Shown piece after piece: positions 31,866 through 55,059 of a stretch of DNA of 64,000 bases. This DNA is from Anadara kagoshimensis (Eukaryota > Mollusca > Bivalvia > Arcoida > Arcidae), in assembly GCA_021292105.1 (NCBI GenBank), contig CM037874.1, positions 11,018,502 through 11,082,501 on the forward strand, given 5' to 3'. A model generated the notes under the pieces. The model made no database searches. It was not told where the DNA came from and saw only the letters and a list, made by a program, of their open reading frames with translations. Position 1 is the first letter of the stretch. Each line of letters starts with the position of its first letter. Position numbers and translations under genes: made by a program.

Positions 31866-31869
31866 TTAT

Positions 31870-32612: not shown

Positions 32613-34547
32613 TTAACCTTCCCTATGATTGTCTTGCCAAGATTCCCACATTTGAATACATCTGTGGAGAAGAGCGTTTGCTAATGGTTTTTCTAATTCG
32701 TCTACTATGTCTTCATCATGAACAACAATACACAGTACATTCAATATGTCACTCATATTATCTCTACAGTCGATGTGATAATATGACAGGAACAGCAGAA
32801 CATAAGTATACACTTTTAGATTTATAAATGTGTTACCGAGAGCCGAATGTTGAACAAGATCTCGTTCTATTTCTGATGGATAGAACCCGCAATCAATGTT
32901 ACAATTAAATGATTCAGTGAAGATACCACGTGTACATTTATCATGCAATGTCAAACCTTTACCACATAAACTATCAATATAATCTTGCCTATCATAAACA
33001 AAAGTAGTGGATAATCCGTAATAAAAAAAACAAGCTTCAAACTTTTTCAGAACTTTTTTGGCAATACTGATGACTTCCTTGTATTCGCGACACAAATAAG
33101 ATAAAATAGCCAACCATAACATCCCGGTACATTTATCCATGTCCATACAGTTCTGTAGAATGAAGGATTTTAGCCCCTTTATTTGTTTGTAATGAATTGT
33201 ATTCGACTGGGTTGTCGATATTTGTTTGTACAGTATTCGTATGATGTAACACACTTCCCTGTTATACCGTGTCACTAGTAACGCTTTGTCTATAGTATTG
33301 CTTGAAGTTTGTATCATTTCAACAATAACCTTCAGGGTCATCAAATACGAGTTTACATCTACACTTTTGAATGGAGAATGAAATAACATTTCACGGTCAC
33401 AATAGTATTCTTTCTCTGCATTTGAGATTTCACTTCCAAGTTGTAACGATCTATCAATGGTACATACGCCAAACTCTGATAAACACGGAATACGCCATAA
33501 GCTATATACGCCTTCATGATAGAGATCACCCAGATACCGATGTAAAATTTCACTTTTGTCTCCACAAATCTTCCCCCCGAACATGTTGTTGGCCTTTATA
33601 AAGAAGTTCGGGCAATATTCATCTCTGACCCATTTTATTAATCTTCTGTAGCACATCCAAAAACAATCAAGAAAGTTTTCTTTGTTCCAAACAACGTGTT
33701 CGTCTTCTATGCTAAAAAATAGGCTGGTTTTTAAGAAGTACGAACAAAACAGATCTTTAACATCTGAATTTGCATTAATTACATGCTTTAGATACAGTTT
33801 CAATAATGCATAACACAAGAACTGTGTTTGGTTAAATGAATGCACAAGTTTTTTCTCGGCAATTGAGAAAGATAGTCGCCATTGCATGTGGCTGTCCTTC
33901 GAGTGTGGATTTCCTATAGGAACGACCAGACATCCGCCCTGAACGATATCTGTAATTAAATCACGGGATGGCCAGTTATTATTTCTGCTTCTGTGAATCC
34001 ATTCGGATGCCACGTTTGGCCAAGTCTTGCATTCGAAACAATACATGAAATCACTCTCCACCTTATCTGGCAATACAAAAGTTGAACAAGGGCCATGAGC
34101 TACTGAATCCGGAAAGACATCTCGGAAAGTTTCAACAACTATATCACGGAGCAATAAACTTGATAAAAGTAAACCTTTGTTAGTTTCTGACATTGCCGGA
34201 GAAATTATGTTATGGTTTCTCATATTTTCATGACAGTAGAGTCGAACAAATCCCGGTTTAATATCGTTTGTATCCATTATGATATCACTGTCTGATGCAG
34301 ATATATCATCTGAACATAATACGGATATGTCTTCAATAACGCCCATTGTATCTATATCACTTCCTGGTAGAGATAATCCTTCAGCCTTACTTCCACTGGT
34401 TATACCTCTTACTCTGCTTTGTGCATTCTGTGTGCGATCGTTAATGCTATCTTCTAATTCATCCTTCCTTCTTCTGATATAAACTACTTCTTCTATTCCG
34501 ACAAATCTACTAAGTTCATTCCATACCATTACCGAAATATTCTCCAT
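32613..34547 (-). CDS. cGAS-like receptor (cGLR) / Mab-21 domain protein, copy 1
   Basis: Intronless 644-codon frame. It belongs to the Mab-21/cGAS nucleotidyltransferase family, whose active members make cyclic (di)nucleotides in the cytosol to signal through STING. Seen: GS motif at residues 52-53 (GSKAEG), D64 and D66 (SDIDTM), third acidic residue D166 (VESDFMYC), and the family-typical WRLSFS at 223-228. The helical lobe runs to about 345 and includes CSYFLKTSLFF (268-278). There is no Cys/His zinc-ribbon insertion as in vertebrate cGAS. Residues 346-644 form a helical extension with a TPR-like stretch near 475-505, typical of bivalve members. The start is chosen because ATG lies in AAACATGG (A at -3, G at +4) and is shared by all copies. 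Stop is TAA. Odd: the usual hydrophobic residue after D-x-D-x-M is Gly here (TMG). Family assignment is strong; enzymatic activity and ligand are inferred only. Confidence 0.93.
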   Translation of the reverse strand: MENISVMVWNELSRFVGIEEVVYIRRRKDELEDSINDRTQNAQSRVRGITSGSKAEGLSLPGSDIDTMGVIEDISVLCSDDISASDSDIIMDTNDIKPGFVRLYCHENMRNHNIISPAMSETNKGLLLSSLLLRDIVVETFRDVFPDSVAHGPCSTFVLPDKVESDFMYCFECKTWPNVASEWIHRSRNNNWPSRDLITDIVQGGCLVVPIGNPHSKDSHMQWRLSFSIAEKKLVHSFNQTQFLCYALLKLYLKHVINANSDVKDLFCSYFLKTSLFFSIEDEHVVWNKENFLDCFWMCYRRLIKWVRDEYCPNFFIKANNMFGGKICGDKSEILHRYLGDLYHEGVYSLWRIPCLSEFGVCTIDRSLQLGSEISNAEKEYYCDREMLFHSPFKSVDVNSYLMTLKVIVEMIQTSSNTIDKALLVTRYNREVCYIIRILYKQISTTQSNTIHYKQIKGLKSFILQNCMDMDKCTGMLWLAILSYLCREYKEVISIAKKVLKKFEACFFYYGLSTTFVYDRQDYIDSLCGKGLTLHDKCTRGIFTESFNCNIDCGFYPSEIERDLVQHSALGNTFINLKVYTYVLLFLSYYHIDCRDNMSDILNVLCIVVHDEDIVDELEKPLANALLHRCIQMWESWQDNHREG

Positions 34548-34617
34548 GTTTAACTGATCAAGCTCTACCGATAAGTGACATCAACGCTATAGATAGCAAC
34601 AGAAAATAAACAAGATA

Positions 34618-34658
34618 GGGGATTCCCATATTTAGTCATACAGTACTCTTTTATATAC
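34618..34658 (-). promoter_or_regulatory. Predicted promoter of cGLR copy 1: TATA box and kappaB-like decamer
   Basis: On the minus strand GTATATAAAAG lies at 34658-34648, about 100 nt before the ATG. A decamer that matches the NF-kappaB consensus GGGRNWYYCC perfectly (GGGGATTCCC on the plus strand) is at 34618-34627. The predicted start site, about 30 nt past the TATA box, would fall in or beside the decamer, giving a 5' UTR of roughly 75 nt. A kappaB site there is unusual, so binding is inferred. Confidence 0.5.
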
Positions 34659-35173
34659 ATACAATATTGATTTGAATTGGAGTTTTAAAATCGTTCATAT
34701 TTGTCAGTTGGTTTTTTAAATTTCTCAATTTGACAAAATGCCAGTATTAGCTATACATATACATATACTGTATGGACTGATAAAAGACATATTTACATGT
34801 TAACGTAACAGTATGTTTGTGTCATAGACTTCTTTTTGTACCCCCAGCCAAAGATAATTCTATATTTTTTCACGAAAATTTACAAAATTACATTTAAGTT
34901 TTCTAGTGGAGAGAACAAAAGCACGTGTTTTCAAATGAACACAGATTTTTAAAGAGAAATTCTTTTCTTGGATAGCTTAAACGTGTGTGTGTTGGGGGGT
35001 TGCTATATGTATTTTTTCCATTGTATCATTTGAACCAGAAATGAAATAAAGGAATGTATCTGGTTCAGTTTGAGATATAAAATACTTTTTTCTAATATAC
35101 ACAATTAACGCATTCCGAGAGCTATCTCTCTCATTGTAGTATATAAGGATCCCTATGTGCCTTTTATACATGT

Positions 35174-35539
35174 AAAGGCCGCGGTTGCCTAATGAATAAG
35201 ACGTCAGTCTATAAATCCAGGGTTCTCACCACTGTGAGTTCGAGTCCCGCTCGGACTACATGTAGAAAAGTGAATTTGCCGTTGCCCTTTACTGGTTCAC
35301 CGGGGTCAGTATAATGCGACTGGGAGAGCGGTACGCTTGTCTGCAGCGTACTGACTCAGTGAGATAGCATCAAAAAGACGCCCTGAGTGCGCGCTGGTAC
35401 AAGGCAGACTATATAACACATTCGCACGTCAAATGCATACACCAACTTGTTCATAGCTTGATCCCTAATATAAGTACTTATCGTCTCGAATAGCTGAAAA
35501 ATTGCTGATGCGACGTTAAGCAACATTCAACAGCAAAAA
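35174..35539 (+). mobile_element. tRNA-derived SINE, full length, with 13-bp target duplication
   Basis: The head is tRNA-like (A-box-like TTGCCTAATGAATAAG, B-box AGTTCGAGTCC). A central domain and a 3' tail (GATGCGACGTTAAGCAACAT) follow. The direct repeat CTTTTATACATGT at 35161-35173 and 35540-35552 brackets it exactly, which shows retroposition. Confidence 0.88.
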
Positions 35540-35984: not shown

Positions 35985-36270
35985 AATATGCTGTCTAGTA
36001 AGTTGTATTTAAATTATTTGATTGACTGTATATTCAATCTGTGAAATATTTTGGATGAACTGTCTAGTTAGTTGTATTACATATTATACTTAATTATTGA
36101 ATGGACTGTCTAGTCAATTTATTTAAAAATATCTGGATGAACTGTGTAATCAATTTATTTTAATTTTTTGGATGGACTGTCTACTAAATTTATTTGAATT
36201 TTTGGATGGACTGTCTACTTAATTTTTTAAATTTTTTGGATGAATTATCTAGTTAGTTTATTTAAATTTA
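35985..36270. repeat. Short degenerate 35-bp satellite array (copy 1)
   Basis: About eight diverged units (GGATGGACTGTCTACTAAAT and relatives) at the place corresponding to the expanded array of copy 2. Confidence 0.85.
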
Positions 36271-37671
36271 GCAAGGCAAATATTATGATGTGTCTGTATC
36301 AAAAATAATCCTGGATATATTTGAAGCATCATATTTTATGTTACTGTCACGTCCTACTGTTTAAGTTTCATGAAATAATGCATTCAAAAGTCGAACATGA
36401 CATCTACCATATTTTATCATGAACCAGAATACACAGTTCATTCAATGTGTAACCCATCATATATCTATATGTCCATGTGATAATACAAAATCCTAGCTGT
36501 AAATTAGCTTATTATGATACTAAGCAATAACACTGATTCTAAGCAAATCACTTCTTAATAAAATGCATTTGTACTTTTTTCAGTTATTGTATTAGGGATG
36601 GCGTTTCTTCATAGAAATTAAGGGGTGACTCTTTTACGGAATGAGATGTATCCGTATCTCAGAATAAGAATTTTACTACTCCCGCATAAAATTTGTCAGC
36701 GTACCTAAGTCAGTAAGTCCATATGAACAATGTTCTCGAGCTTAAAAGAAGTTCATTACCTATAACAGCTGGTGTGGATTTACCATATTCTCTTTTGTAC
36801 AATGCCAAGGTTATTTCATTGATGAGTCAGTGTAAATACATTCCAACCTAAAAATATCACACTTAATTTCTGGAAATAAATTTTGCCAAAAAATTCAATA
36901 TTATATGGTAAATTATATACTAATGATATTTTAACAATGTTTATAAATCGGTTTCAGTATATAGGTGTAAACAGTATTTTGTAAACATAAATATATTCTA
37001 CTGTACTGACATAGAAGGAAAAAATGTGTCAGTAAGCTATCAATAAATGAAATCAACTGCCAAAGAACTTTCTAGATGCAGCCAAAGCGAGCTGCCTATT
37101 CGTCACTTAATCGTTAGAATTGTTATTTTTGCAACAGGCCTGCACTGTAATTTAAATTCCAACTATCGTATTTTAAAGATTGGTATATTGAATATATAAT
37201 GGAAATTAACGGTCCTACTAAACCATATTCATTATAAATAAAACCTCTTTTATCAAACATTGTGGCTACATTAAAAAAAAACCTTGCTATTTTTAGTGGC
37301 TTCATTTTATGAGATTGTAATGTACAATTAAAGTCTCGACTAAAAATCTTATTTTAAAAGTCTGCACACTCCATAAAATTTTCTATTTCACTTCAAACTG
37401 AAAAAAGTCTATGTCTAACAACTCCACCTTTTTATCCTTTAATGGAATGATTGATAGTTGCCTATAACCTGGCCATATTATCATGACAGACGAAAGTGGT
37501 ATTGAACCCCTGTACACCTTAAGCCTGTGGTCAGGTGTGGCATGGTTTAAAAACCCTCGCGTACTAAAACTGAAACGAAAAACTTTGTTTTTTGTTATTT
37601 GTTGGATATGTAATATATAAATAAACCAAACATATACTGGGTACTTTTATAAATTTTATGAATCGAAATAT

Positions 37672-38060
37672 TCTCTATATCTAAATATCAATATCTTTCA
37701 GGTATAGTTGCATCAACGATATTAATAACAAAAAAAGCAAGGTAAGGGATTTCCATATTTAGTCAAACGGTACTGTTTGATAAATTTTGAATCATCGGAT
37801 AATACTCGAAAAGAAATATTTTCCAAATTTACCTTGTTATTCTATTTGTGATATCAACGATATAAATGACAACAGAAAATAAACAAGGTGGGGATTCCCA
37901 TGTTTAGTCATAGAGTACTCTTTTATATACATGTATATTTTAGATAAAACAGAGGTGTTAAATCGATTCTTATTCGTAAGATGCTTTGTTTAAAATTTCT
38001 CATTTTGACAAAATGCCAGAATTGGCTATACACATACTGTATGGTTCATAAAAGACATAT
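37672..38060 (-). pseudogene. Relic of a cGLR 5' end with promoter block, no body (copy 2)
   Basis: Same arrangement, more decayed: the ATG position reads ATA. GGGGATTCCC at 37890-37899 and CTTTTATATAC at 37920-37930 are kept; the second decamer has decayed to AGGGATTTCC. Flank homology runs on to ~38.7 kb. Confidence 0.52.
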
Positions 38061-38699
38061 TTACTTGTTTATAGGTATATCTATATTAATACATACAGGC
38101 TTTTTTTCGCCCAAACCCAATCAACTCTAATATATTTTTCAACTGTATAAAATGTTCTCTATGCTTTTCAGTCAAACTAAAAATTTTAGTAGAAGGTGAA
38201 AAAGATAGTAAATAGTTGGTTTTGAAATATGGAAATTTTTATGACCAGTTACAATGGGGGTGTTTCCCTTTTACAGTACCACTGAAAAAAGAAAACACTA
38301 TCCGTTTATTGCTGCCATAAAATTATTCTCAGAGACAATCAGATATCATCATTTATAGTAATGAGGGCATCTAACGGATTACAGTGCAAATTATAGCAAA
38401 CTGTATATAACTATATTGAATTTCTAGATACATTCTTAGTAAAGAAATAAAATGTACATGGATATGTATGTATATGTATTTCATCATTACAGTTTAAATA
38501 CTGTCGCATATCATTTTTCAGCCTACCTAACAGAACAGTAAGTCCGCATACGATTATGTTCTCGAACTTATTATTTGATAAGATATCAATTGATGGTCTT
38601 TAAATAAATTTCGTTCATCTGTTTCAGTATGTAGGTGTTTGAAGACTTTTGTGAACATAAATATCTTTTACTGAAATCAAAGGAATACAATAAGGAAAC

Positions 38700-39229
38700 T
38701 TAAGGAACTTTTGAGTGAAGCAACACTTTTTTAATATAAATATGCGTTGCTACATAATCTACATTCATGAACACCCATGCTAATGCGTTAGACTCTAACT
38801 TGGTGGATTTCTTGCTGTGTTTGTGGAATGTAAGGCATGTTCGACTATTCCTTCGCTAAGCACTTGGCATATTAAAACATTAGCTTGGTCCTTTGAGTGG
38901 CAAATACCTATAAAACCAATTGCCCGTGTCACAGTAGTCCCGTTTAACAATAGAAGTTATAATACAACGCCGAGCCAGGTGACCTCACAAACCGGTGTTC
39001 TGTGTTACTGCAGGCGTATCACGTCACATTAAAGAACTCCCACTACACATTGCTCCTAGCGCGCTGCAAAGGTCAAAATATTTGCCATTTCAACTATAGC
39101 TGATGATGTTTGGATATAAGTGAAATATTATTGAATGGTTTGTAAAACAATCATTCAAACTCAAAGCCGTTCCCGACAGCTGAGTTGGAGTTATGTGTAT
39201 TATATAAGGCAAGCTGCATACAAGTATTT
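38700..39229. other. Gene-free stretch (copy 2)
   Basis: SINE-like scraps: GCTAAGCACTTGGCATATTA near 38857 and CACATTAAAGAACTCCCAC near 39024. No coding signal. Confidence 0.55.
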
Positions 39230-39570
39230 TTGACGCAAGAGTATTGAAATCCTAGTTCAAGCAAGGCCTAAAAAGACATTTTCCCCTCACGTTAATATTG
39301 AGGATAGAAATACGATGTCTCTGTATCCAAAATAACCCTGGATATATTCGACGCCCCATGGTTTCATGTAACTGCCTTTGATACTTTTGAATTTTTATGA
39401 AATAATACATTCAAAAATATAACAACACATTCAAAAGTAGCACATGACATAACTTTCATTCTCGATTTCAATTTCCCATGTGGCAAGTGAAGCTAGCTCA
39501 ACAGGAGGTTCTTACTCTTCTGAGGTTCCCGAAATAACTTTCCCGGTGGTGGTTTACGTGCTTACATGTG
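39230..39570 (+). repeat. R1 on the 3' side of cGLR copy 2
   Basis: Equivalent of 31870-32250. Confidence 0.72.
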
Positions 39571-39859
39571 CTAGTTTTGAATATCGAAATTTATCTCAAA
39601 TTCCTTTGAAAACCGGAATTTATCTCAAAAAATGAAGGAGGGTTAACTGGAAAGAGATTTAAAGATGTAAAAAAGCGTTTATTACTAGCTAACTCTTTAA
39701 TTGCTGACGTTAAAGACAACAAACAGACACTCTTTTTTGCTTTGTGATTATGAAATGGACATGAACTGAGTGTTTATTGTTTATTATATTACTTTAAATA
39801 CTCCAAACAGTATATAGTACGCTAAATAAACCAATGAACAAATATATAGGATACGAATA

Positions 39860-39865
39860 TTTATT
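39860..39865 (-). terminator. Polyadenylation signal AATAAA, cGLR copy 2
   Basis: Minus-strand AATAAA about 76-81 nt beyond the stop, equivalent to the copy 1 signal. Confidence 0.6.
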
Positions 39866-39940
39866 TTCTTTAATATAAATCTGACAAATCTCTAACATTC
39901 ACAAAACACAATCCGATTGTGTTTGAAATAATGGATCTTT

Positions 39941-41902
39941 TTAACCTTCCCTATGATTGTCTTGCCAAGATTCCCACATTTGAATACATCTTTGGAGAAG
40001 AGCGTTTGCTAATGGTCTTTCTGAATCGTTTACTATGTCTTCATCATGAGACACAATACACATAACATTCAATATGTCACTCATATTATCTCTACAGTCC
40101 ATGTGATAATATGACAGGAACAACAGAACATAAGTATACACTTTAAGATGTATACATGTGAGACCGAGGGTCGAATGTTGAACAAGTTCTCGTTCTATTT
40201 CTGATGGATAGAACCCACAATCAATGCTACAAACAAATGACCCTGTGCTGACACCACGTGCATATTTATCATGCAGTGTCAAACCTTTACCACATAACCT
40301 ATCAATATAAGCTTGCTTATCATTAACACGAATAGAAGATAATCCGTAATAAACAAAACAAGACTCAAACTTTTTCAGAACGTTTTTGGAAGTAATGATG
40401 ACGTCCGTGTATTCTCTACATGAATAACATAAAATAGCCAGCAGTAACATCCCGGTACATTTATCCATGTCCATACACTTCTGTACAATGAAGGATTTCA
40501 ATCCTTTTATTTTTTTGTAACGAGTTTTATTCGACTCGGTTGTCGATATTTGTTTGTACAGTATTTGTACATAGTTAAAAACTTCCTTAATATACTGGGT
40601 CACAAGTAACGCTTTGTCTATAGTATTGCTTGAGGTTTGTATCATTTCAACAATAACCTTCAGGGACTTAAAATACATGTTTACATCAATACTACCACAG
40701 AATCGAGAATGAAATAACATTTCACGGTCACAATAGTATTCTTTCTCTGCATTTGATATTTCACTTCCAACTTGTAACGATCTATGAATGGTAGATACGC
40801 CAAACTTTGATAAACACGGAATACGCCAAAAGCTATATACGCCTTCATGATAGAGATCACCCAGATACCGATGTAAAATTCTACCTTTATCTCCACAAAT
40901 CTTCCCCTCGAACATGTTATTGGCCTTTATAAAGAAGTTTGGACAATATTCATCTCTGACCCATTTCATTAATCTTCTGTAGCACATCCAAAAACAATCA
41001 AGAAAGTTCTCTTTGTTCCAAACAACGTGTTCGTCTTCTATGCTAAAAAATAGGCTGGTTTTTAAGAAGTACGAACAAAACATATCTTTAACATCTGAAT
41101 TGGCATTAATTACATGCTTTAAATAAAGTTTCAATAACGCATAACACAAAAACTGTGTTTGGTTAAATGAATGCACAAGTTTTTTCTCGGCAATTGAGAA
41201 AGATAGTCGCCATTGCATGTGGCTGTCCTTCGAGTGTGGATTTCCTATAGGAACGACCAGACATCCGCCCTGAATGATATCTGCAATTAAGTCACTTGGT
41301 GGCCAGTTATTATTTCTCATTCTATGGATCCATTCCGATGCCACGTTTGGCCAAGTCTTGCACTCGAAACAATACATGAAATCACTTTCCATCTTGCCTG
41401 GTAATACAAAAGTTGAACAAGGACCATGACCGACTGAATCCGGGAACTTATCTCGGTAATGTTCAACAACCATATCACGAAGCAATAAACTTGATAAAAC
41501 TAAACCTTTGTTAGTTTCTGACATTGCCGGAAAAATAAAGTTAATGTTTCTCAGATTTTCATGACAGTAGAGTCGAACAAATCCCGGTTTAATATCGTTT
41601 GTATCCATTATAATATCACTGCCCGATACAGACATGTTTTCTGAACATGATACGGATATGTTGTCACAAATGAACATCAAATCTAGATCACTTCCTGGTA
41701 GTGATAATCCTTCAGCCTTACTTCCACTGGTTATTCTTCTTACACTGTTTTGTGCATTCCATTTGCGATTGTAAATGCTATTCCATTTGCGATTGTAACT
41801 GCTATCATTTAATCCATACTCCCTTCTTCTGATATAAATTTCTTCTTCTATTCCGACAAATCTACTAAGTTCATTCCATACCATTACCGAAATATTTTCC
41901 AT
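39941..41902 (-). CDS. cGAS-like receptor (cGLR) / Mab-21 domain protein, copy 2
   Basis: Intronless 653-codon paralogue of the gene at 32613-34547. GS motif at residues 60-61, D72 and D74 in SDLDLMF (closer to the classical [E/D]xDxMF of cGAS than the other copies), third aspartate D174, WRLSFS from W231. Residues about 175-355 are nearly identical to copy 1. Differences concentrate at residues 21-58, 75-95 and in the C-terminal extension. An 8-residue tandem duplication (YNRKWN twice, residues 36-49) comes from two adjacent 24-bp units at 41756-41803 and explains most of the extra length. Same Kozak context as copy 1; AATAAA 76 nt past the stop. The kappaB-like site upstream is kept but the TATA box is not, and two M1-type elements, a long hairpin and a 3.3-kb satellite sit 0.6-4.5 kb upstream. 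Likely a functional nucleotidyltransferase; expression may differ from copy 1. Confidence 0.93.
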   Translation of the reverse strand: MENISVMVWNELSRFVGIEEEIYIRRREYGLNDSSYNRKWNSIYNRKWNAQNSVRRITSGSKAEGLSLPGSDLDLMFICDNISVSCSENMSVSGSDIIMDTNDIKPGFVRLYCHENLRNINFIFPAMSETNKGLVLSSLLLRDMVVEHYRDKFPDSVGHGPCSTFVLPGKMESDFMYCFECKTWPNVASEWIHRMRNNNWPPSDLIADIIQGGCLVVPIGNPHSKDSHMQWRLSFSIAEKKLVHSFNQTQFLCYALLKLYLKHVINANSDVKDMFCSYFLKTSLFFSIEDEHVVWNKENFLDCFWMCYRRLMKWVRDEYCPNFFIKANNMFEGKICGDKGRILHRYLGDLYHEGVYSFWRIPCLSKFGVSTIHRSLQVGSEISNAEKEYYCDREMLFHSRFCGSIDVNMYFKSLKVIVEMIQTSSNTIDKALLVTQYIKEVFNYVQILYKQISTTESNKTRYKKIKGLKSFIVQKCMDMDKCTGMLLLAILCYSCREYTDVIITSKNVLKKFESCFVYYGLSSIRVNDKQAYIDRLCGKGLTLHDKYARGVSTGSFVCSIDCGFYPSEIERELVQHSTLGLTCIHLKVYTYVLLFLSYYHMDCRDNMSDILNVMCIVSHDEDIVNDSERPLANALLQRCIQMWESWQDNHREG

Positions 41903-41972
41903 GTTTAACTGAACAAGCTCTACCGTTAAGTGACATCAACGATATAAATAGCAACAGAAAATAAACAAGGTA

Positions 41973-41982
41973 GGGGATTCCC
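41973..41982 (-). promoter_or_regulatory. kappaB-like decamer upstream of cGLR copy 2, TATA box lost
   Basis: GGGGATTCCC is preserved 71-80 nt upstream of the ATG, at the same place as in the other copies. The neighbouring stretch that reads TATATAAAAG in copies 1 and 3 here reads GTACAAAAAAG (near 42004-42014), so no TATA box remains. Confidence 0.45.
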
Positions 41983-42484
41983 ATATTTAGTCATGCAGTA
42001 CTCTTTTTTGTACATGTATTTCTTTAGATGGGATATTAATTTCAAGTGTAGTTATATTTGTAAGGTGGTTTTTTTAATTTCTCAATTTGACACAAAGCCA
42101 GAATTGTTTGCACACACATTACTGTGTGTGTTTAAAAACGACGCAATTACTTGTTGACTGACGGGTATGTAGAAACCGTTTAGTACCCCAAACCCTTGAT
42201 ATTCTATAATAAATTTCTTCACAAAAATTTACAAAATAATCTTTTCTAGTCAAACTTAAAATTTTTGTGTAGAGTACAAATGCAGGTGTTCGCAAATTAA
42301 CATAGTTTTTAAGGGGAATTATTTTCTTGACAAGTTTGGACGTGTGTTTGTGTGTGTGTTTGTGTCGTTTTTTTTTCACTGTATCATATGAACAAAACAT
42401 GTTTTAAAGGAAATTATCTGGTTCAATTCAGTTAGTCAATTAGAGAAGAAAATATTTCCTTCTAATAACGCATGTCGAAAACTT

Positions 42485-42699
42485 CAGTACGGGCTTGTCG
42501 AAAGTTTAACACTAAACTAACGCATTAGTGCCGAATCGACAGTTCATCTTAAACACTGGTTACTGACAACAAGTCTCGACAGGTTTTCCATCTTTTAGCA
42601 TTTTTTCGGCAACTGACTATCCGTATCACGGTCACTCGACAGGTGAACTTCGACTCATTTTCGCTGGCGCATTGTTAAACGTTTGACAGGTCTGTACTG
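42485..42699. mobile_element. M1 MITE upstream of cGLR copy 2
   Basis: CTTGTCGAAAGTTTAACACT to TGTTAAACGTTTGACAGGTC. Lies where copies 1 and 3 carry the SINE flank. Confidence 0.78.
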
Positions 42700-43023: not shown

Positions 43024-43134
43024 ATTTTTTTCTCGTACCGTTAAAATGTTTATAACTGTGATACGTACAAAGCTAAATACGTGTACGTACCATTATGGGG
43101 CCTGTTGCATTCCTTTTGGCAATTTATAAATATT

Positions 43135-46100
43135 CAGTTGTATTTAAAGCATTGGATAGACTGTCTAGTCAGTTGTATTTAAATCATTGGATGGACTGTC
43201 TAGTCAGTTGTATTTAAATCATTGGATGGACTGTCTAGTAAGTTGTATTTAAATCATTGGATGGACTGTCTAGTCAGATGTATTTAATCATTGGATGGAC
43301 TGTCTAGTCAGATGTATTTAAATCATTGGATAGACTGTCTAGTCAGATGTATTTAATCATTGGATGGACTGTCTAGTCAGATGTATTTAATCATTGGATG
43401 GACTGTCTAGTCAGTTGTATTTAAATTATTGGATGGACTGTCTAGTCAGTTGTATTTAAATTATTGGATGGACTGTCTAGTCAGTTGTATTTAAATTATT
43501 GGATGGACTGTCTAGTCAGTTGTATTTAAATTATTGGATGGACTGTCTAGTCAGTTGTATTTAAAGCATTGGATAGACTGTCTAGTAAGTTGTATTTAAA
43601 TCATTGAATGGACTGTCTAGTCAGTTGTATTTAAATCATTGGATGGACTGTCTAGTCAGTTGTATTTAAATCATTGGATAGACTGTCTAGTCAGATGTAT
43701 TTAATCATTGGATGGACTGTCTAGTCAGTTGTATTTAAATCATTGGATGGACTGTCTAGTCAGTTGTATTTAAATTATTGGATGGACTGTCTAGTCAGTT
43801 GTATTTAAATCATTGGATGGACTGTCTAGTCAGTTGTATTTAAATCATTGGATGGACTGTCTAGTCAGTTGTATTTAAATCATTGGATGGACTGTCTAGT
43901 CAGATGTATTTAATCATTGGATGGACTGTCTAGTCAGTTGTATTTAAATCATTGGATGGACTGTCTAGTCAGTTGTATTTAAATCATTGGATGGACTGTC
44001 TAGTAAGTTGTATTTAAATCATTGGATAGACTGTCTAGTCAGATGTATTTAATCATTGGATGGACTGTCTAGTCAGTTGTATTTAAATCATTGGATGGAC
44101 TGTCTAGTCAGTTGTATTTAAATCATTGGATAGACTGTCTAGTCAGTTGTATTTAAATCATTGGATAGACTGTCTAGTCAGATGTATTTAATCATTGGAT
44201 GGACTGTCTAGTCAGTTGTATTTAAATCATTGGATGGACTGTCTAGTCAGTTGTATTTAAATCATTGGATGGACTGTCTAGTCAGTTGTATTTAAATCAT
44301 TGGATGGACTGTCTAGTAAGTTGTATTTAAATCATTGGATGGACTGTCTAGTCAGTTGTATTTAAATTATTGGATGAACTGTCTAGTCAGTTGTATTTAA
44401 ATCATTGGATGGACTGTCTAGTCAGTTGTATTTAAATCATTGGATGGACTGTCTAGTCAGTTGTATTTAAATCATTGGATGGACTGTCTAGTCAGTTGTA
44501 TTTAAATTATTGGATGGACTGTCTAGTCAGTTGTATTTAAATTATTGGATGGACTGTCTAGTCAGATGTATTTAAATCATTGGATGGACTGTCTAGTCAG
44601 TTGTATTTAAATTATTGGATGGACTGTCTAGTCAGTTGTATTTAAATTATTGGATGGACTGTCTAGTCAGTTGTATTTAAATCATTGGATGGACTGTCTA
44701 GTCAGATGTATTTAAATCATTGGATGGACTGTCTAGTCAGTTGTATTTAAATTATTGGATGGACTGTCTAGTCAGATGTATTTAAATCATTGGATGGACT
44801 GTCTAGTCAGTTGTATTTAAATTATTGGATGGACTGTCTAGTCAGTTGTATTTAAATTATTGGATGGACTGTCTAGTCAGTTGTATTTAAATTATTGGAT
44901 GGACTGTCTAGTCAGTTGTATTTAAATCATTGGATGGACTGTCTAGTCAGATGTATTTAAATCATTGGATGGACTGTCTAGTCAGTTGTATTTAAATTAT
45001 TGGATGGACTGTCTAGTCAGTTGTATTTAAATCATTGGATGGACTGTCTAGTCAGATGTATTTAAATCATTGGATGGACTGTCTAGTCAGTTGTATTTAA
45101 ATTATTGGATGGACTGTCTAGTCAGTTGTATTTAAATTATTGGATGGACTGTCTAATCAGTTGTATTTAAATTATTGGATGGACTGTCTAGTCAGTTGTA
45201 TTTAAATTATTGGATGGACTGTCTAGTCAGTTGTATTTAAATTATTGGATGGACTGTCTAGTCAGTTGTATTTAAATCATTGGATGGACTGTCTAGTCAG
45301 TTGTATTTAAATTATTGGATGGACTGTCTAGTCAGTTGTATTTAAATTATTGGATGGACTGTCTAGTCAGTTGTATTTAAATTATTGGATGGACTGTCTA
45401 GTCAGTTGTATTTAAATTATTGGATGGACTGTCTAGTCAGTTGTATTTAAATTATTGGATGGACTGTCTAGTCAGTTGTATTTAAATCATTGGATGGACT
45501 GTCTAGTAAGTTGTATTTAAATCATTGGATGGACTGTCTAGTCAGATGTATTTAAATTATTGGATGGACTGTCTAGTCAGTTGTATTTAAATCATTGGAT
45601 GGACTGTCTAGTCAGTTGTATTTAAATTATTGGATGGACTGTCTAGTCAGTTGTATTTAAATTATTGGATGGACTGTCTAGTCAGTTGTATTTAAATCAT
45701 TGGATGGACTGTCTAGTCAGATGTATTTAATCATTGGATGGACTGTCTAGTAAGTTGTATTTAAATCATTGGATGGACTGTCTAGTCAGTTGTATTTAAA
45801 TCATTGGATGGACTGTCTAGTAAGTTGTATTTAAATCATTGGATGGACTGTCTAGTCAGTTGTATTTAAATCATTGGATAGACTGTCTAGTCAGATGTAT
45901 TTAAATCATTGGATGGACTGTCTAGTAAGTTGTATTTAAATTATTGGATGGACTGTCTAGTCAGTTGTATTTAAATCATTGGATGGACTGTCTAGTAAGT
46001 TGTATTTAAATCATTGGATGGACTGTCTAGTCAGTTGTATTTAAATCATTGGATGGACTGTCTAGTCAGTTGTATTTAAATCATTGGATGGACTGTCTAG

Positions 46101-46430
46101 TCAGTTGTATTTAAATCATTGGATGGACTGTCTAGTCAGTTGTATTTAAATCATTGGATGGACTGTCTAGTCAGTTGTATTTAAATCATTGGATGGACTG
46201 TCTAGTCAGTTGTATTTAAATCATTGGATGGACTGTCTAGTCAGTTGTATTTAAATCATTGGATGGACTGTCTAGTCAGTTGTATTTAAATCATTGGATG
46301 GACTGTCTAGTCAGTTGTATTTAAATCATTGGATGGACTGTCTAGTCAGTTGTATTTAAATCATTGGATGGACTGTCTAGTCAGATGTATTTAATCATTG
46401 GATGGACTTTTTAGTGCATTTACTTAAAAA
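43135..46430. repeat. 35-bp satellite array, about 94 units
   Basis: Head-to-tail units of about 35 bp, core GGATGGACTGTCTAGTCAG then TTGTATTTAAATCATT. Variants: TCATT/TTATT endings, TTG/ATG, AGTAAG for AGTCAG, GGATAG for GGATGG, and a 34-bp form (ATGTATTTAATCATT). No spacers, so not a CRISPR. Variants recur in blocks, as expected from unequal exchange. No reading frame. Confidence 0.97.
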
Positions 46431-46535
46431 TATTTGGATGGACTGTCTAGTCAGATTATTTTAAATTTATAGATGGACTATCTTGTCAATTAATCTAAAT
46501 TTTTGAATGGACTGTTTAGTTAGTTTATTTAAATT
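46431..46535. repeat. Degenerate edge of the 35-bp satellite
   Basis: Three diverged units at the right edge of the array; the last, ending TTTAAATTTAGC, matches the final unit at 36240-36270. Confidence 0.8.
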
Positions 46536-47071
46536 TAGCCAGACTTAAAAAGATATATGTCCCTCATAAGAATACTGTGGGTAAAAATATGATGTGTCTG
46601 TATCAAAAATAAACCTAGATATATTTGCAGCATCATAGTTATATGTTACTGTCATGTGCCATTTTTGATTTTTTATGAATTAATACATTCAAAAGTAGAA
46701 TATGACATCTACCAGTTTTTAATCATGAATCAAACAACACGAATCATTCAATGTGTAACTCATCATATCTCTACAGTCCATGTGATGATACAAAATACTA
46801 TCTTTTTTAACAAGCAGTAAATAAGCTTATTTTGATACCAAACAATAACACTGATTTTAAGTAAATCACTTCTTAATAAAATGTACAAAATGTATTTGTA
46901 CTTTTTTACAATTTTTGTAGTAGGGATGACGTTTTATGGAAATTAGGGAGTGGCGTTTACTTCCAGAATGAGATGTCTCTGTATCTCAGAATTAAAGTTT
47001 AACTACTTCCGCACATCATCTTTCAGAGTACCTAAAAGTAGGTGTGGATTTTTCCACATTCTCTTTTGTAT

Positions 47072-47950
47072 AATTAAAAGTCCATATCTATACAAAAAGT
47101 TAATAGTTTTCAAGATGAATAACCATTGCAATATCATTTCGCATCTGTGACCTTGACCTTTGAACCCATGACCTTAATCTATATATCAAAATGATCGTTA
47201 CACCAATACTAACAATATTTTAATATACATGTCTATACAAAAAGTTAATAGATTTCGAGATAATTAACCAAACCGGTATTCTTTTGCATCTGTGACCTTG
47301 ACCTTCAAACCGATGACCTTAATTTATACATCAAAAATGATCGTTGTATCAATATCTACAACATTCTAATATACATCTCTATACAAAAAGTTAATAGTTT
47401 CCAAGATAATAATTAAAATCAGAGGTAAAACAATTAGGTCATGACCTTCACAATTTACCTTGACCCCATTTTGAAGATAATAACAAGAATATATCAAATC
47501 TGAAAACCCATGTCATTATCTGGTCAAATAGTCAAGTTATAACAATTTGAAGCTATTTTACGATTTTTTCAAAATTAAACGCAAAAACCCTAACCTATTT
47601 TTTGTCTGAATTTCACAAAATCAACCAACTAAAAGCTTAAGACCCTACAAAAGCCGAATATCACATCAGATTTTTTCTCTAATCATTGATTTTGGAGAAG
47701 ATTTTTTAAGATTTTTGTAACCCTAGGTCACCTTGACTTAGATATGGTAGCCATGGCAACGCCACGAAAAAATCTGAATTGCACCGGCCCATAAATACGT
47801 CTTGAGTTTCATTAAAATCTGTCAGGTAGTTTCAGAGGAGAAGTCGAAAATATGTATTAACGACGCACGCACGCACGCACGCATTCACGCACGCACGCAT
47901 ATACACACGCTGCGCTATGCCATAAGCTAACATTACCTTCGCTAAAAAAA
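47072..47950 (+). repeat. Same 146-bp repeat element, truncated (copy 3)
   Basis: Only the last two CATCTGTGACCTTGACC units (47141, 47286) and the common tail with CGCA microsatellite (47863-47898). The left end is lost at the duplication boundary. Confidence 0.8.
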
Positions 47951-48723
47951 GCAATACGCGTGATAATATATGTGTCACAAGTCATACAGCCATAATATAA
48001 ATACAACGTGTAATCTATAAAACATATGACATCCAGTCAATTAAGTTATGAGACACTTTAAACTATATACATGCGATAAGACATATATACAGATATTGAA
48101 TACCAGTGTAAAAATATATACATACAAAACACCTATTAAATACCAGTAATATTATAATTTCCTACGCTGAAACATGAATAAAAAGTTCTGCTAAGTTTAA
48201 AATCAAGTTCATTGCACGACATTAAAAAAGTAAGTTTTTCATAACTATGTAAAAAAATCCTTGTAGATTAATGTATCACATTTGACTGATTGGTCAGATT
48301 CAAAGCAATTTATTCAGAAACACACAACACAACATAATACAACATAACATAACACCACTAAAATCAACATAACATGGCCATGAGGTAAAATTTGGCACCA
48401 TAGACGGTTTTTGGGATCGGGGGTATTTGTTTCTCAAATAAGTGCTCTTGTTTATTTCATACACTACAATTCTTTTATTCTTTTTAAGAGCCTTTTCAAT
48501 ATATTTCGAGCTATGTACAGATTGTCAGCCATATATGATTATTTCTACATGTGTCTTTGTTTACTTTAGCGAGGATTTGCCATCATGTGTGGTACCGGAT
48601 TATAGACAAGAAGACTTATAGTGTTGCCAGGAATAACTTTAAAACTTCTGAACGAAAGCCGTTATTTATCTGTTAATTGTAGAGTATGGCTTAGAATTAT
48701 CACACAACGTGTTAATATCGACT

Positions 48724-48872
48724 GTGGACAGTACAGGCCTGTCAAAAGTTTAACCCTGAGGTATCGATTTAGTACTCATCTAGATCCCTTGTCACAATGT
48801 GGGCAGTACATGCCTGTCTAAAGTTTAACACTTAGGTAACGATTTAGTACTCATCTCGACCCCTTGTTATAT
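48724..48872 (+). repeat. 75-bp tandem array, two units (copy 3)
   Basis: Equivalent of 27995-28443 with only two units (48724, 48800). Confidence 0.88.
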
Positions 48873-48912
48873 TTAGCTTTATCTAGACAGCTATTTAGCA
48901 TCTGCTTTCTAC

Positions 48913-49113
48913 AGTACAGATCTGACAAAGTTTAGCCCTAGTTAACCAATTACTGTCGAATTTGAATCTTATCTCGGCACTTAGTAAGCAAAATCATTTC
49001 AACAGTGCTTTTTTATGTCCCTCTTTCCGTTCAATTGGTATCCATATTTCGACCACTAAGCAACCCAGTTCGGTTCCATTTCGTTGGCGTTAAACTTTCG
49101 ACAGGTCTGTACT
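48913..49113. mobile_element. M1 MITE (copy 3)
   Basis: Equivalent of 28484-28685. Confidence 0.78.
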
Positions 49114-49199
49114 ATATCTCCCTGTAATTTTTCTGCTATTAGCTATCAATTTCATATCTCATTCGCTCGGCAACTTCGACACCGACACCTTTTGTGATA

Positions 49200-49397
49200 C
49201 AGTACAGGCCTGTCGAAATTTTAACACTTAGTTAAGGAATAACAGTCGGATTGGCAGTCAATCTCGACCCCTTCTAAGTTGTACTTCGAAAGATGTTGCT
49301 TGTTTTGCTCACAAGTTATCCATATCTCGGCCACTCAGCAACTAAACTTAGACTCCATTGTGTTGGTTCAATGTTAAACTTTCGACAGGCCTGTACT
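49200..49397. mobile_element. M1 MITE (copy 3)
   Basis: Equivalent of 28772-28978. Confidence 0.8.
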
Positions 49398-49554
49398 CTA
49401 TGATATAATTTCGGAAATTGTTAAAGACTTTGGTATCGTTATCTGGTGTCTCCAAGAAAATTAAATTCCTGCTCCAATAGGAAAAGTATGATTATGTTTT
49501 TGGCATATACATGTACAGAGAGTTTAAAGTTTAACACTGGATTTAATGTAATCA

Positions 49555-49725
49555 AAAACAAACCCACTAATCCATGTCCGAATCACAATCCAGAACTAAA
49601 GTAAACACTTTGGAACTGACAAGTTAGGTTAGACACGTGAACTTCCACCAGGGAAGTGAGGCCAGGTGCTCCGGAAGGGTAAGCACCTCCTGTTTAGCTA
49701 GCTACACCCGCCACGTGCGTAAATG
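49555..49725 (-). repeat. R1, 3' part (copy 3)
   Basis: CTTCCACCAGGGAAGTGAGG; equivalent of 29125-29290. Confidence 0.7.
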
Positions 49726-50022
49726 AGTCAAACTGGCCGTGACATGAATAGCTAGAGACAGAAAAGGAAAACAGCTGTCGAAATGCTGTTCAGGTGCAGC
49801 TAAAGCGAGCTGCCAATTCGTCACTTTACCGTTAGAATAGTGTTAAGCTTTTAACAGGCTTGAACTGAAATTTATTCAAGTTTTGTATACATGTATATAC
49901 TGAATATATGATGAAAATTAACTGACCTACTACAGGTGCGCACATACTAAAACTGAAACGACACAAAGCACTATTTATTGGATAGTGGATATTAAAATAA
50001 TAAACCAAACAGATTTTTTTTG

Positions 50023-50400
50023 TAATCGAAATATTCTCCATATTTAACTTATGTTTTGTTTTAAATATTGTTGCATCAACAATATAAAAAGCAACAGACA
50101 GAAAATCAACAAGGTAGGGGATTTCCATATCTAGTCACATGGTACACATTTATTATGTTTTAATTGATCGGGTAATAATAAAATTGAAATATTTCTTTAG
50201 TGATATCAACGATATAAATAGCAACAGAAAATAAACAAGGTAGGGGATTCCCATGCCACGCAGTTCTCTTTTATATATATATGCATATTTTAGATAAGAC
50301 AGAGGTTTTAAATCGATCTTACTCGTAAGATTTTTTTTAAAAATTCTCAATTTGACAAAATGCCAAAATTGACAATACACATAATGTATAGTTCATAAAA
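50023..50400 (-). pseudogene. Relic of a cGLR 5' end with promoter block, no body (copy 3)
   Basis: Clearest relic: 24 of 25 bases around the ATG (50023-50047) match the start region of the intact genes, including part of the 5' leader. Decamers GGGGATTTCC 50117-50126 and GGGGATTCCC 50243-50252, TATA-like run 50268-50280. Confidence 0.6.
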
Positions 50401-51826
50401 CGTATAAAATGTACTTGTTTACAAACAGGTATGTCTATGTTTAATCATAGACACTTTTTTGTACAACAAACCGAATAAATTCTAAAACATTTTTTTTCAC
50501 AGGACCATATAAAATGTGTTTTAGGCTCTTTTAATCAAACTTAAAATTTTAGTGGGGGTGAAGATGAAATAAATGGTTGGTCTGGAAATATGGAAATTTT
50601 TTCATGATTAGTTTCAATGGGGATGTTCCCTTTTGCAGTAACTACATGTACTATCTGTTGGTTGTTGCTATAAAATTAGTCTCGGAGACAATCAGATACC
50701 ATTAATAATGGCAATAAGGGCATCTAACGGATCACAGTGCCTTTTATACATAAAATATCATAGCAAACTGTATATAAAATATATTGAATTTCTGGATAAA
50801 TTTTTGTTTGAAAAATAAAATATGAACATGGATATGTATGTATTTGTATCTCAGGATGAGAAAGCTATCACTGTTGTATACCATTTTTCAGCCTATCTAA
50901 CAGAACAGTAAGTCCATTTGGAACAAAGTCCTTGAATTTAAAAGTAGGTCATTACCTATAACAGCTGGTGTGAATTTTTCCACATTCTCTCTTGTATAAT
51001 TACAAAGGCGTTCCATTGATTAGTCAGTGTAAATACACACTAACTTGAAAAGTTTCACACGTAATTACTAGAAAAAAGGTTTGCCAAATAAGATCAATAT
51101 TACTTAGTAAAATACATATTGCAGATCTTTATAAATGTTTATAAATTCGTTTTAGTTTAATTCGTGTTTTGCTAAACATAAATTTCTTCTACTGAAATTA
51201 AAGGGATAGAAAAAGAAACCTGAGACAACACATATATATTTTTGGCTAAGCACTCGGCATTTAAAAAATAAAGTCCTGTAAACCGATCACCCTTGTCACA
51301 AAAGGCGTTTCACGATAAAGATCCCTCCCTGCATATTGCCCCGAAAAGGTCAAATTCACTGCCACTTAGTCAAATTCACTGCCACTACCGAAATTTAATG
51401 ACATCTCGACGTGAAATATTTTTTCACTGTGATGTAAAACACCATTCAATCAATCTGCAACCAATCAAGAATACTACCTGATTTTTGAAAAATAACAGGG
51501 TTTACAGACGGTGCATCAGACGAAAATACATACATAATTGATAACTACATCACTTTGATTTTGCTTTTATTTTAGACATAGATATATATTCAATACTTCC
51601 GAGTCTATCTATTTCAAATTTCGACGCTTTGATTTTACAAGGTCAACTTATACCTTATATTTAACAGTAAACTATTCAAATACAATGTCATAGTTTGCTG
51701 AATAGTTTTAGCAATCAATGTTGCTTTAGAATGCACTTACAGTTTGAAATATTGAACTTAAGACTCCTTTCCACTTTGTAGTTCGCTTAACTTTATTATT
51801 CTGGCTAAACTAATGTTTCAATTGGT

Positions 51827-51828
51827 TT

Positions 51829-51859
<31 letters not shown>

Positions 51860-51870
51860 TGTATTTATTT
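51827..51870. repeat. (TTTA)n microsatellite
   Basis: About ten units, absent at the equivalent place in copy 1 (31420). Confidence 0.93.
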
Positions 51871-52389
51871 CATAAAATCAGAACGGTTTTATCATTATGT
51901 GCTCAACTTTTATTCAGTTTTTATTCCTAATAACAAGCTCTATATGGGATTTAAACCGGCGTCGACATGCATTCTTACAAATAAATTCCACTGGCAATAA
52001 ACGTGATTATTTAAACTATTAATACATTTTAATTAATAAGAGGTCTATATCATTGCTTTGTGTAAAATGTACGGGTAAAGAAACATTTTAAATTTTTGAA
52101 ATCTAGACAATATATAAAGTCCCGTTTAACAATGTAAGTTATAATACAACGCCGAGCCAGGTGACCTCACAAATCGATGTTCTGTGTTACAGCAGGCGTA
52201 TCACGTTAAAGAACCCCCACTACACATTGCCCCTAGCGCACTGCAAAGGTCAAAATATTTGCCATTTCAACTATAGCTGATGATGTTTGGATATAAGTGA
52301 AATATTATTGAATAGTTCGTAAAACAATTAATCATTCCAAGTCAAAGCCGTCCCCGACAGCTGAGTTGGAGTTATGTGCATTATATAAG

Positions 52390-52760
52390 GCAAGCTGCAT
52401 ACAAGTATTTTTGATGCAAGAGTATTGCAATCCTAGTTTAAGCAAAGCCTAAAAAAGACATTTTTCCCCGCACGAGAATATTGAGGATAGAAATACGATG
52501 TCTCTGTATCCAAAATAACTCTGGATATATTCGACGCCCCATGGTTTCATGTAACTACCTTTGATACTTTTGATTTTTTTACGAACTAATACATTCAAAA
52601 GTACAACATGACGTTTCAAAAGTACTAGTAGCACATGACATAACTTTCATTCTCCATTTCAATTTTCCACGTGACGAGTGAAGCTAGCTCAACAGGAGGT
52701 TCTTACTCTTCCGGGGTTCCCGAAATAACTTCCCCGGTGGTGGTTTACGTGCTTACATGT
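52390..52760 (+). repeat. R1 on the 3' side of cGLR copy 3
   Basis: Equivalent of 31870-32250. Confidence 0.72.
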
Positions 52761-53044
52761 GCTAGTTTTGAATATCGAAATATATCTCAAATTTCTTTAA
52801 AAACCGGAATTTCCTTTAAAAAATGAAGGAGGGTTAACTCGAAAGAGATTTTAGGACGTAAAAAAAGCGTTTATTACTAGCTAACGCTTTAATTGCTGAC
52901 ATTAAAGACAAAAACGGACACTGTTGTTACTTTGGGATTATGAAATGGACATGAACTGTGTGTTGTTTATTATATCACTTTAAATACTCCAAACAGTATA
53001 TAGTACGCTAAATAAACCAATATACAAATACATAAGATTCGAAA

Positions 53045-53050
53045 TTTATT
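53045..53050 (-). terminator. Polyadenylation signal AATAAA, cGLR copy 3
   Basis: Minus-strand AATAAA about 75-80 nt beyond the stop, equivalent to the copy 1 signal. Confidence 0.58.
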
Positions 53051-53124
53051 TTTTTAATTTAAATAGGACAAATCTCTAATATTTACAAAACACAATCCGA
53101 TTTTGTCTGAAATAATGGATCTTT

Positions 53125-55059
53125 TTAACCTTCCCTATGATTGTCTTGCCAAGATTCCCACATTTGAATACATCTGTGGAGAAGAGCGTTTGCTAATGGT
53201 CTTTCTGAATCGTCTACTATGCCTGCATCATGAGACACAATACAAAGTACATTCAATATGTCACTCATATTATCTCTACAGTTCATGTGATAATATGACA
53301 GGAACAGCAGAACATAAGTATACACTATTGGATGTATAAATGTGAGACCGAGGGTCGAATGTTGAACAAGTTCTCGTTCTATTTCTGATGGATAGAACCT
53401 GCAATCAATGTTACAATTAAATAATCCTATGTGGATAACACGTGCATACTTATCATGCAATGTCAAACCTTTACCACATAAACTATCAATATAAGCTTGT
53501 TTATCATAAACAAAAATAGTGGATAATCCGTAATAAACAAAACAAGATTCAAGCTTTTTCAGAAATTTTTTTGCAATACTGATGACTTCCTTGTATTCAC
53601 GACACAAATAACATAAAATAGCCAACCATAACATCCCGTTACATTTATCCATGTCCATACAGTTCTGTACAATGAAGGATTTCAGTCCCTTTATTTGTTT
53701 GTAACGAGTTCTATTCGATTCGTTTGTCGATATTTGTTTGTACAGTTTTTGTATGTAGTAACACATTTCCCTGTTATACCGTGTCACAAGTAACGCTTTG
53801 TCTATAGTATTGGTTGAAGTCCGTATCATGTCAACGATAACCTTCGGGACCATCAAATACGTGTTTACATCTAGACTAAAAAATGGAGAATGCACTAACA
53901 TTTCACAGTCACAATAGTATTCTTTCTCTGCATTTGAGATTTCACTTCCAACTTGTAACGATCTATCAATGGTACATACGCCAAACTTTGATAAACAAGG
54001 AATACGCCATAAGCTATATACGCCTTCATGATAGAGATCACCCAGATACCGATGTAAAATTACACTTTTATCTCCACAAATCTTTCCCTCAAACATGTTA
54101 TTGTCCTTTATAAAGAAGTTCGGACAATATTCATCTCTGACCCATTTTATTAATCTTCTATAGCACATCCAAAAACAATCCAGAAAATTGTCTTTGTTCC
54201 ACACAACGTGTTCGTCTTCTATGCTATAAAATAGGCTGGTTTTTAAGAAGTACGAACAAAACAGATCTTTAACATCTGAATTTGCATTAATTACATGCTT
54301 TAGATACAGTTTCAATAACGCATAACACAAAAACTGTGTTTGGTTAAATGAATGGACAAGTTTTTTCTCGGCCATTGAGAAAGATAGTCGTCATTGCATG
54401 TGGCTGTCGTTAGAGTGTGGATTTCCTATAGGAACGACCAGACATCCGCCCTGAACGATATCTGTAATTAATTCACGCGGTGGCCAGTTATTATTTCTGC
54501 TTCTGTGAATCCATTCCGATGCCACGTTTGGCCAAGTCTTGCATTCGAAACATAACATGATATCACTTTCCATCTTGTCTGGTAAAACAAAGGTTGAACA
54601 AGGACCATGACCGACTGAATCCGGGAACTCATCTCGGGATTGTTCAACAAGTATATCACGGAGCAATAAACTTGATAAAACTAAACCTTTGTTAGTTTCT
54701 GACATTGCCGGAGAAATTTTGTTATAGTTTCTCAGATTTTCATGACAATAGAGTCGAGCAAAACCCGGTTTAATATCGTTTGTATCCATTATGATATCAC
54801 TGTCTGATGCAGATATATCATCTGAACATGATACGGATACGTCTTCAATAACGCCCATTGTATCTATATCACTTCCTGGTAGTGATAATCCTTCAGCCTT
54901 ACTTCCACTGGTTATACTTCTTACACTGCTTTGTCCATTCATTGTGCGATTGTAAATGCTATCAAATAATTCATGCCTCCTTCTTCTAATATAAACTATT
55001 TCTTCTATTCCGACAAATCTACTTAGTTCATTCCATACCATTACCGAAATATTTTCCAT
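53125..55059 (-). pseudogene. cGLR / Mab-21 domain gene, copy 3, interrupted by one in-frame TGA
   Basis: Third paralogue, 644 codons plus stop, collinear with copy 1 and free of frameshifts. Codon 223 (54391-54393) is TGA where copies 1 and 2 have TGG, the Trp of WRLSFS that is conserved through the cGAS/Mab-21 family. Everything else looks functional: GS 52-53, D64, D66, D166, helical lobe and C-terminal extension. The frame therefore splits into a 222-residue N-terminal part holding the catalytic motifs and a part that could restart at Met229 (54375), where other copies have Ile. A frame drawn from 55080 would need a GTG start; the shared ATG at 55059 with Kozak context is preferred. Promoter block (kappaB and TATA) and AATAAA are intact. 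Most likely a very young pseudogene or a null allele. A base-call error, readthrough or A-to-I editing (UGA to UGG) cannot be excluded from sequence. Confidence 0.88.

Follow-up and report, generated by a model that had tools for sequence, protein, structure and literature searches.

According to PMC9980059, animal cGAS-like receptors (cGLRs) share a Mab-21 nucleotidyltransferase (NTase) domain, a Mab-21_C helix bundle and a GS...DxD...D active site, and have formed radiations of more than 200 members in two bivalves. The same source reports that two oyster cGLRs are activated by double-stranded DNA (dsDNA), and ties isoelectric points (pI) above 8.5 to the sensing of dsDNA or double-stranded RNA (dsRNA), other ligands being suggested for acidic cGLRs. 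The shrimp proteins Mab21-1/2/3 are likewise invertebrate immune proteins of the Mab-21 family; they are reported to signal through IKKe and to make no cyclic GMP-AMP (cGAMP) (PMC12928593). Here we describe three cGAS-like loci, c1, c2 and c3, in a stretch of 64,000 nucleotides from the bivalve Anadara kagoshimensis (contig CM037874.1, positions 11,018,502 to 11,082,501 of the forward strand), hereafter the window. A first-pass annotation had read these loci as a tandem triplet of cGLR genes and noted an expansion of cGLRs in bivalves, for which the radiations reported in PMC9980059 are already in print.

The reading we favour is one of diversified one-exon cGLR-type synthases, perhaps NF-kB-inducible and probably with ligands other than nucleic acids, in a cluster that is turning over; on sequence grounds we give it about an even chance. 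Its components differ in strength. Membership of the Mab-21/cGAS-like (cGLR) superfamily is solid, and a function like that of a cGLR synthase is likely, because rapid change has spared the catalytic residues. A role as dsDNA or dsRNA sensors is doubtful: with proteins that range from acidic to mildly basic, most members probably have a ligand other than long dsDNA or dsRNA. For most of the expanded bivalve cGLRs we know of no ligand.

Superfamily membership and active site

The three loci are collinear on the minus strand, with one exon each. Open reading frames (ORFs) and Pfam matches, together with Protein Data Bank (PDB) matches for c1, define two intact cGAS-like genes, c1 (32613..34547, minus strand, 644 amino acids (aa)) and c2 (39941..41902, minus strand, 653 aa). 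The third copy, c3 (53125..55059, minus strand), has 86% protein identity to c1 and is interrupted by a single in-frame TGA (54391..54393, minus strand), with an open piece of 222 codons, starting at the ATG, ahead of it and one of 421 codons behind. Because the remainder of c3 is open, this lesion looks recent. All three loci contain GS, DxD and a third Asp (GS 52-53, D64, D66 and D166 in c1 numbering), and each ends in an extension of some 300 residues at the C terminus. The arrangement of three loci given at first pass stands, but only c1 and c2 are intact genes of 644 and 653 codons, and the motifs listed for all three are present except that in c3 the TGA takes the place of the Trp of WRLSFS.

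Matches to the Pfam families Mab-21 and Mab-21_C, both with a cut-off of 24.1 bits, were obtained for c1 (2.1e-9, 38.1 bits and 4.2e-11, 43.3 bits) and for c2 (5.7e-8, 33.5 bits and 1.3e-10, 41.8 bits). When the two pieces of c3 were searched separately, the C-terminal piece matched Mab-21_C at 44.2 bits, and Mab-21 was not matched at E<=10. Across the family described below, both domains were matched by 38/38 members at E<=1, and 25 of the 38 also matched NTP_transf_2 (E<=1; best 4.1e-4). The best PDB match of c1 is cGAS-like receptor 1 (8gjy, 9.5e-16), followed by cGAS at about 1e-7. A profile of the 38 members gives 3.2e-25 for cGLR1 and 4e-12 for cGAS, with weaker matches to MB21D2 (1.2e-7) and Mab21L1 (8.5e-4), neither of which is, to our knowledge, a radiation. 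The search against Mab-21/NTase profiles that was proposed at first pass therefore finds its match, and the identification as cGAS-like receptors holds at the level of the superfamily.

The alignment with vertebrate cGAS covers approximately c1 residues 134-333 and pairs both WRLSFS and the third Asp, D166 falling in the printed alignment on an Asp of cGAS whose strand comes just before the cGAS 'WP' motif. The GS-DxD half is more weakly supported, by the NTP_transf_2 matches given above and by a putative nucleotidyltransferase in the PDB aligned at GS and SDID (E 0.052); the N-terminal profile, A4, was built from 30 of the 38 A2 members. Vertebrate cGAS carries a zinc thumb of the form H..CC..C. 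Unlike vertebrate cGAS, our loci have an extra C-terminal region, and the zinc-thumb spacing (searched as H-x3-8-CC-x4-9-C) was unmatched in c1 and c2, the two proteins searched. The C-terminal extension matched no Pfam profile, and its profile, A3, found nothing in the PDB at E<=10. By eye only, it resembles TPR helices; a TPR model is absent among the 20 Pfam families matched by the 38 members at E<=1. AlphaFold2 on window-only alignments gave a mean confidence score (pLDDT) of 36.7 for the whole of c2 and 41.9 for the C-terminal part, values too low for these models to bear on the structural check proposed at first pass.

The genome searched comprises 1.115 Gb in 36 contigs. With c2 as the query, 68 of 681 candidates were scored and 68/68 matched; with Mab-21_C, 150 of 423 were scored and 150/150 were above the cut-off; and a degenerate DNA pattern for CPN[YF]FIK gave 184 hits, compared to one for the reversed control. 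These counts point to a family of about 180 loci, of which the window triplet is one small cluster. Forty loci, chosen to span contigs, were fetched from the 65 non-window matches listed; 36 of them have a single open frame that runs to 625 codons or more, so that the coding part is intronless as a rule. These 36 were aligned (L012, L013, L023 and L030 excluded, the near-identical rows L018/L025 and L032/L033 retained), and together with c1-c3 they form the 39 members used for the motif, pI and selection counts. Twenty divergent Mab-21_C loci were sought and five examined (L051-L055): the C-terminal extension is common to L055, while L051-L054 show no match to it. L051 has GS and ELD, probably a third Asp, and a C-terminal cysteine cluster that resembles a ZZ zinc finger by eye, and is perhaps another cGLR architecture. 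A pattern-based search confirmed no relatives in viral and prokaryotic contigs, and no publication on a one-exon bivalve cGAS-like family was found in a search whose coverage of subscription journals is thin.

GS and D64/D66/D166 are kept in 39/39 aligned members, c3 counted. The preprint version of PMC9980059 gives the cGLR signature as h[QT]GS-x8-20-[DE]h[DE]h-x50-90-h[DE]h; with h taken as AVILMFWYC, 0/39 members fit it in full. The residue before GS is Ser in 36/39, Lys in 2/39 and Gly in 1/39, and because the D66-D166 distance is 95-104, the last gap of the signature is over 90 in all 39. If this motif, as worded there, serves as a strict filter, families like the present one may be under-counted. 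Full-protein pI ranges from 5.61 to 8.44 (median 6.61; 5.6 for c1 and 7.2 for c2) and exceeds 8.5 in 0/39, as computed with a calculator other than that of PMC9980059. For residues 1-335 the median is 5.93, with two of the 39 (L032, L033) above 8.5. Compared to the animal cGLRs of that paper, the family thus shares the Mab-21 NTase and Mab-21_C domains, the GS...DxD...D arrangement and a very large bivalve radiation, and differs in the Ser that mostly precedes GS, the longer D66-D166 gap, the median pI of 6.6 and the Pfam-less extension of about 300 aa. The shrimp proteins are reported to differ in signalling without cGAMP (PMC12928593); in the present family the catalytic residues are strictly kept.

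Constraint, variation and the upstream block

Between the window copies the ratio of nonsynonymous to synonymous change (dN/dS, or omega) is 0.46-0.56, and at about 245-330 dN is 0.014-0.024 against a dS of 0.24-0.28. Over the 39 members omega is 0.22 at positions 176-245, 0.15 at 246-335 and 0.91 at 386-440, these and the following values being parsimony or pairwise counts in which saturation is possible on deep branches. Taking the whole tree and three clades, the ranges are 0.12-0.25 for the core (176-335) and 0.89-0.94 for 386-440. In 15 independent pairs, residues 385-404, one window among the 12 compared, reach 1.39 with an uncorrected p of 0.04.

On both strands bearing the catalytic Asp residues, every other position is constrained. 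Positions of Asp parity show an omega of 0.11 and a mean entropy of 0.34 bits, compared to 1.30 and 2.92 bits for positions of opposite parity, and in the 15 independent pairs the omega values are 0.16 and 1.28, respectively. A sign-flip test on the paired entropies gives P 1/256, the smallest value possible, for a split chosen after the data were seen. Strand periodicity has P 0.007 at 161-172, 0.099 at 63-72 and 0.15 at 46-53, and helical periodicity at 130-150 is marginal (P 0.049). The variation on the opposite face and in the variable segments suggests candidate ligand-contact residues. It would also set these apart from signal-making residues, so that exchanging surfaces among named copies could be used to ask what the receptors detect.

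Upstream of the coding regions, a kB-like 10-mer, GGGAATCCCC, is common to c1 (34618..34627), c2 (41973..41982) and c3 (55130..55139), on the minus strand and in each case 80 bp ahead of the start codon. TATAAAA lies at -108 relative to the start codon of c1 (34649..34655, minus strand, 28 bp before the kB-like site) and of c3 (55161..55167, minus strand); upstream of c2 the TATA pattern is unmatched at the corresponding position. As a kB-like site we took any match to GGGRNWYYCC, or to the reverse of this pattern, no more than 200 bp from the ATG, and counted it in 41 loci, namely c1-c3 and the 38 of the 40 fetched loci with a recognised start (L012 and L027 dropped). Such a site occurs in 5/7 members of the window clade (0.05 expected) and in 12/15 of the C7 clade (0.09 expected), or 17/22 for the two together (about 0.14 expected), the expectations being from order-1 Markov resampling. 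In the C7 clade it is, by eye, the best conserved block in otherwise diverged upstream DNA. NF-kB perhaps controls these two clades, judging from the sequence; the short palindrome could also act in RNA or mark the start of transcription. The C12/C13 clade (L037, L039-L048) seems to conserve an upstream block of its own that lacks a kB-like site, and an AP-1-like TGASTCA is found in 8/19 members outside both kB clades.

Turnover of the cluster and competing explanations

The loci lie on duplicated DNA. Unit 1 (26371..35012), which consists of a relic and c1, and unit 3 (47071..55543), which was delimited by self-comparison and alignment to unit 1 and consists of a relic and c3, are identical at 7903 of 8450 aligned bases, or 93.5% (~26.4-35.0 kb versus ~47.1-55.5 kb). 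Self-comparison places the core of unit 2 around c2 at 39023..42478, with its own relic at 37.6-38.1 kb; this unit shares the gene and near flanks, and the c2 gene region has 89-91% identity to units 1 and 3. The identity between units 1 and 3 shifts blockwise: over stretches of 250 bases it is 92-100% at 26.6-31.2 kb, falls to 81-87% at 31.25-32.0 kb and is 89-96% in the gene. The recent segmental duplications proposed in the first-pass annotation are therefore duplications, but of uneven recency, with 250-base identities from 81 to 100% between units 1 and 3.

Each unit has a relic on the minus strand with a promoter-like block, a kB-like site and a gene start. In unit 1 (29500..29985, site at 29841) this is a decayed MENIS start, in unit 2 (37560..38070, site at 37890) a decayed start without ATG, and in unit 3 (49832..50390, site at 50243) a MENISITKK start. 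A scan with the family hidden Markov model (HMM) found no gene body at any of the three. The relics near 37.8 and 50.2 kb lie inside the span covered by the first-pass annotation, which does not mention them, and the one near 29.8 kb lies outside it. A dead copy has left a C-terminal relic of 28 aa at 46707..46790 (minus strand; tblastn with c1 0.002, family HMM 7e-4).

A genome search with the c1 promoter block (window 34548-34760, very common words skipped) returned 11 matches, of which eight are main matches and three are shorter ones beside two of the downstream blocks. The eight lie upstream of c1, c2, c3 and L009, a fourth copy 10.7 Mb from the window, and again downstream of each of these genes, at a distance of some 2-3 kb. 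The pair of gene and downstream block therefore recurs at L009, suggesting that a gene and a dead gene were probably copied as one unit. A widespread mobile repeat is unsupported as the source of the blocks, since all 11 matches under that word filter lie at or downstream of c1-c3 and L009. Shared variants among c1, c2 and c3 are clustered along the sequence (P 0.0002), yet the clustering is not significant in the quartet with L009 (P 0.14), so that gene exchange between copies is likely but unproven; the branch uniting c1 and c3 apart from L009 has a support of 0.206. As read from the sequence, the cluster is turning over by birth and death, with copying and decay evident and exchange only probable. 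The local birth-and-death cluster inferred at first pass is borne out in the duplicated units, the broken c3, the relics and the recurring pair of gene and downstream block.

The same decay would be expected if the family were mostly genomic noise, with many copies dying, window copies that have no special role and a family size set by duplication-prone DNA. Indeed, c3 is broken, three relics lie in the window, 4/40 fetched loci are without an open frame of 625 codons, and stops fall inside a number of c2-search matches, some of them merely the normal end stop. We regard this explanation as very improbable given the dN/dS of the window copies, their low dN relative to dS at about 245-330 and the open frames of at least 625 codons in 36/40 fetched loci. 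A more conventional proposal, that the proteins are ordinary dsRNA- or dsDNA-sensing cGLRs like those of oyster or Drosophila whose non-core variation reflects relaxed constraint, is in our judgement unlikely, although it deserves serious weight: cGAS-like receptor 1 is the best PDB match, two oyster cGLRs are reported to be activated by dsDNA (PMC9980059), and the variable regions have omega values under or close to 1 that do not clearly exceed it. It is at odds with a median pI of 6.6 and no member above 8.5, with the zinc-thumb spacing not found in c1 and c2, and with a residue-by-residue alternation on the Asp strands that simple relaxation does not readily explain. A further proposal is that the proteins signal as proteins only, serving as adaptors for the activation of a TBK1/IKKe-type kinase and making no nucleotide, as is reported for the shrimp Mab21 proteins. 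This proposal has a published precedent within the superfamily (PMC12928593) and would suit the long additional C-terminal region and the departure from the cGLR motif, but GS and three Asp residues in 39/39 members, while alternate residues change freely, are a strong sign of selected catalysis, and we find it distinctly improbable.

The reading of diversified cGLR-type synthases has its own points against it. None of the 39 members fits the published cGLR motif, and the shrimp Mab21 proteins are reported to make no cGAMP (PMC12928593). Opposite-face omega shows no significant excess over 1 (15 pairs, p 0.20), the split into front and back was made only after the entropies were seen, and per-site tests give a best p of 0.009 among several hundred sites, with none significant overall. 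'Front' and 'back' of the sheet are assigned from Asp alternation and homology, and in the variable N-terminal stretch a helical periodicity is unsupported (20-47, P 0.97; 24-46, P 0.94). As for the upstream block, 0/19 members outside the window and C7 clades have a kB-like site; since the 17 carriers are related, the site indicates conservation and not repeated gain; and, should the TATA box be genuine, this site would lie approximately at the transcription start, which is unusual for an activator site.

According to the synthase reading, a compact promoter would drive expression, the kB-like site suggesting control by NF-kB. The pattern of variation suggests that the ligand would be sensed by a diversified surface made up of the palm beta-strand face lying opposite to the catalytic Asps, the variable segments near 28-50 and near 136-144, and one segment within the C-terminal extension. 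The bound ligand would then activate a normally built active site (GS, D64, D66, D166) to produce a cyclic or linear nucleotide, and STING-type receptors would read this signal. The repertoire would keep shifting as units of gene and promoter are copied and decay, probably with some exchange between copies. More tentatively, and with odds that we place well on the unfavourable side, the NTase fold itself may be the repertoire receptor, its catalytic face frozen while the opposite strand face, the adjoining segments and the C-terminal segment are hypervariable, across some 180 loci (one-exon where examined) including two clades mostly with a kB-like element. If true, a second-messenger synthase would have undergone germline diversification like that of the MHC groove, directed at ligands that are neither dsDNA nor dsRNA. 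STING-type ligand-binding exons (STING_LBD) are present in the same genome, on contig C13. Two loci there, L049 and L050, hold such exons on opposite strands at approximately 37.5/39.6 Mb and 27.0/28.3 Mb, and the STING genes may also be duplicated.

Other features of the window

Beyond the three loci, no ATG frames of at least 150 aa were found in the window; a Pfam search of ten further ORFs, among 36 stop-to-stop frames, gave nothing over the cut-off, and searches of the window for tRNAs and Rfam families gave no match. Between units 2 and 3 lies a 35-bp satellite (43134-46534; 97.5 copies, 95% match), and an array of similar units, less regular and shorter, is found at 36092-36269. A tandem unit of 145-147 bp stands where units 1 and 3 begin, with 8.8 copies at 25420-26704 and 2.3 copies at 47083-47410. 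Near the start of the window, about 500 bp at 408-910 form a self-matching inverted repeat (65% identity) that has dispersed relatives at approximately 13.1 and 15.7 kb and may be a mobile element, and 7711-8272 and 8340-8888 are a tandem duplication with 88-91% identity.

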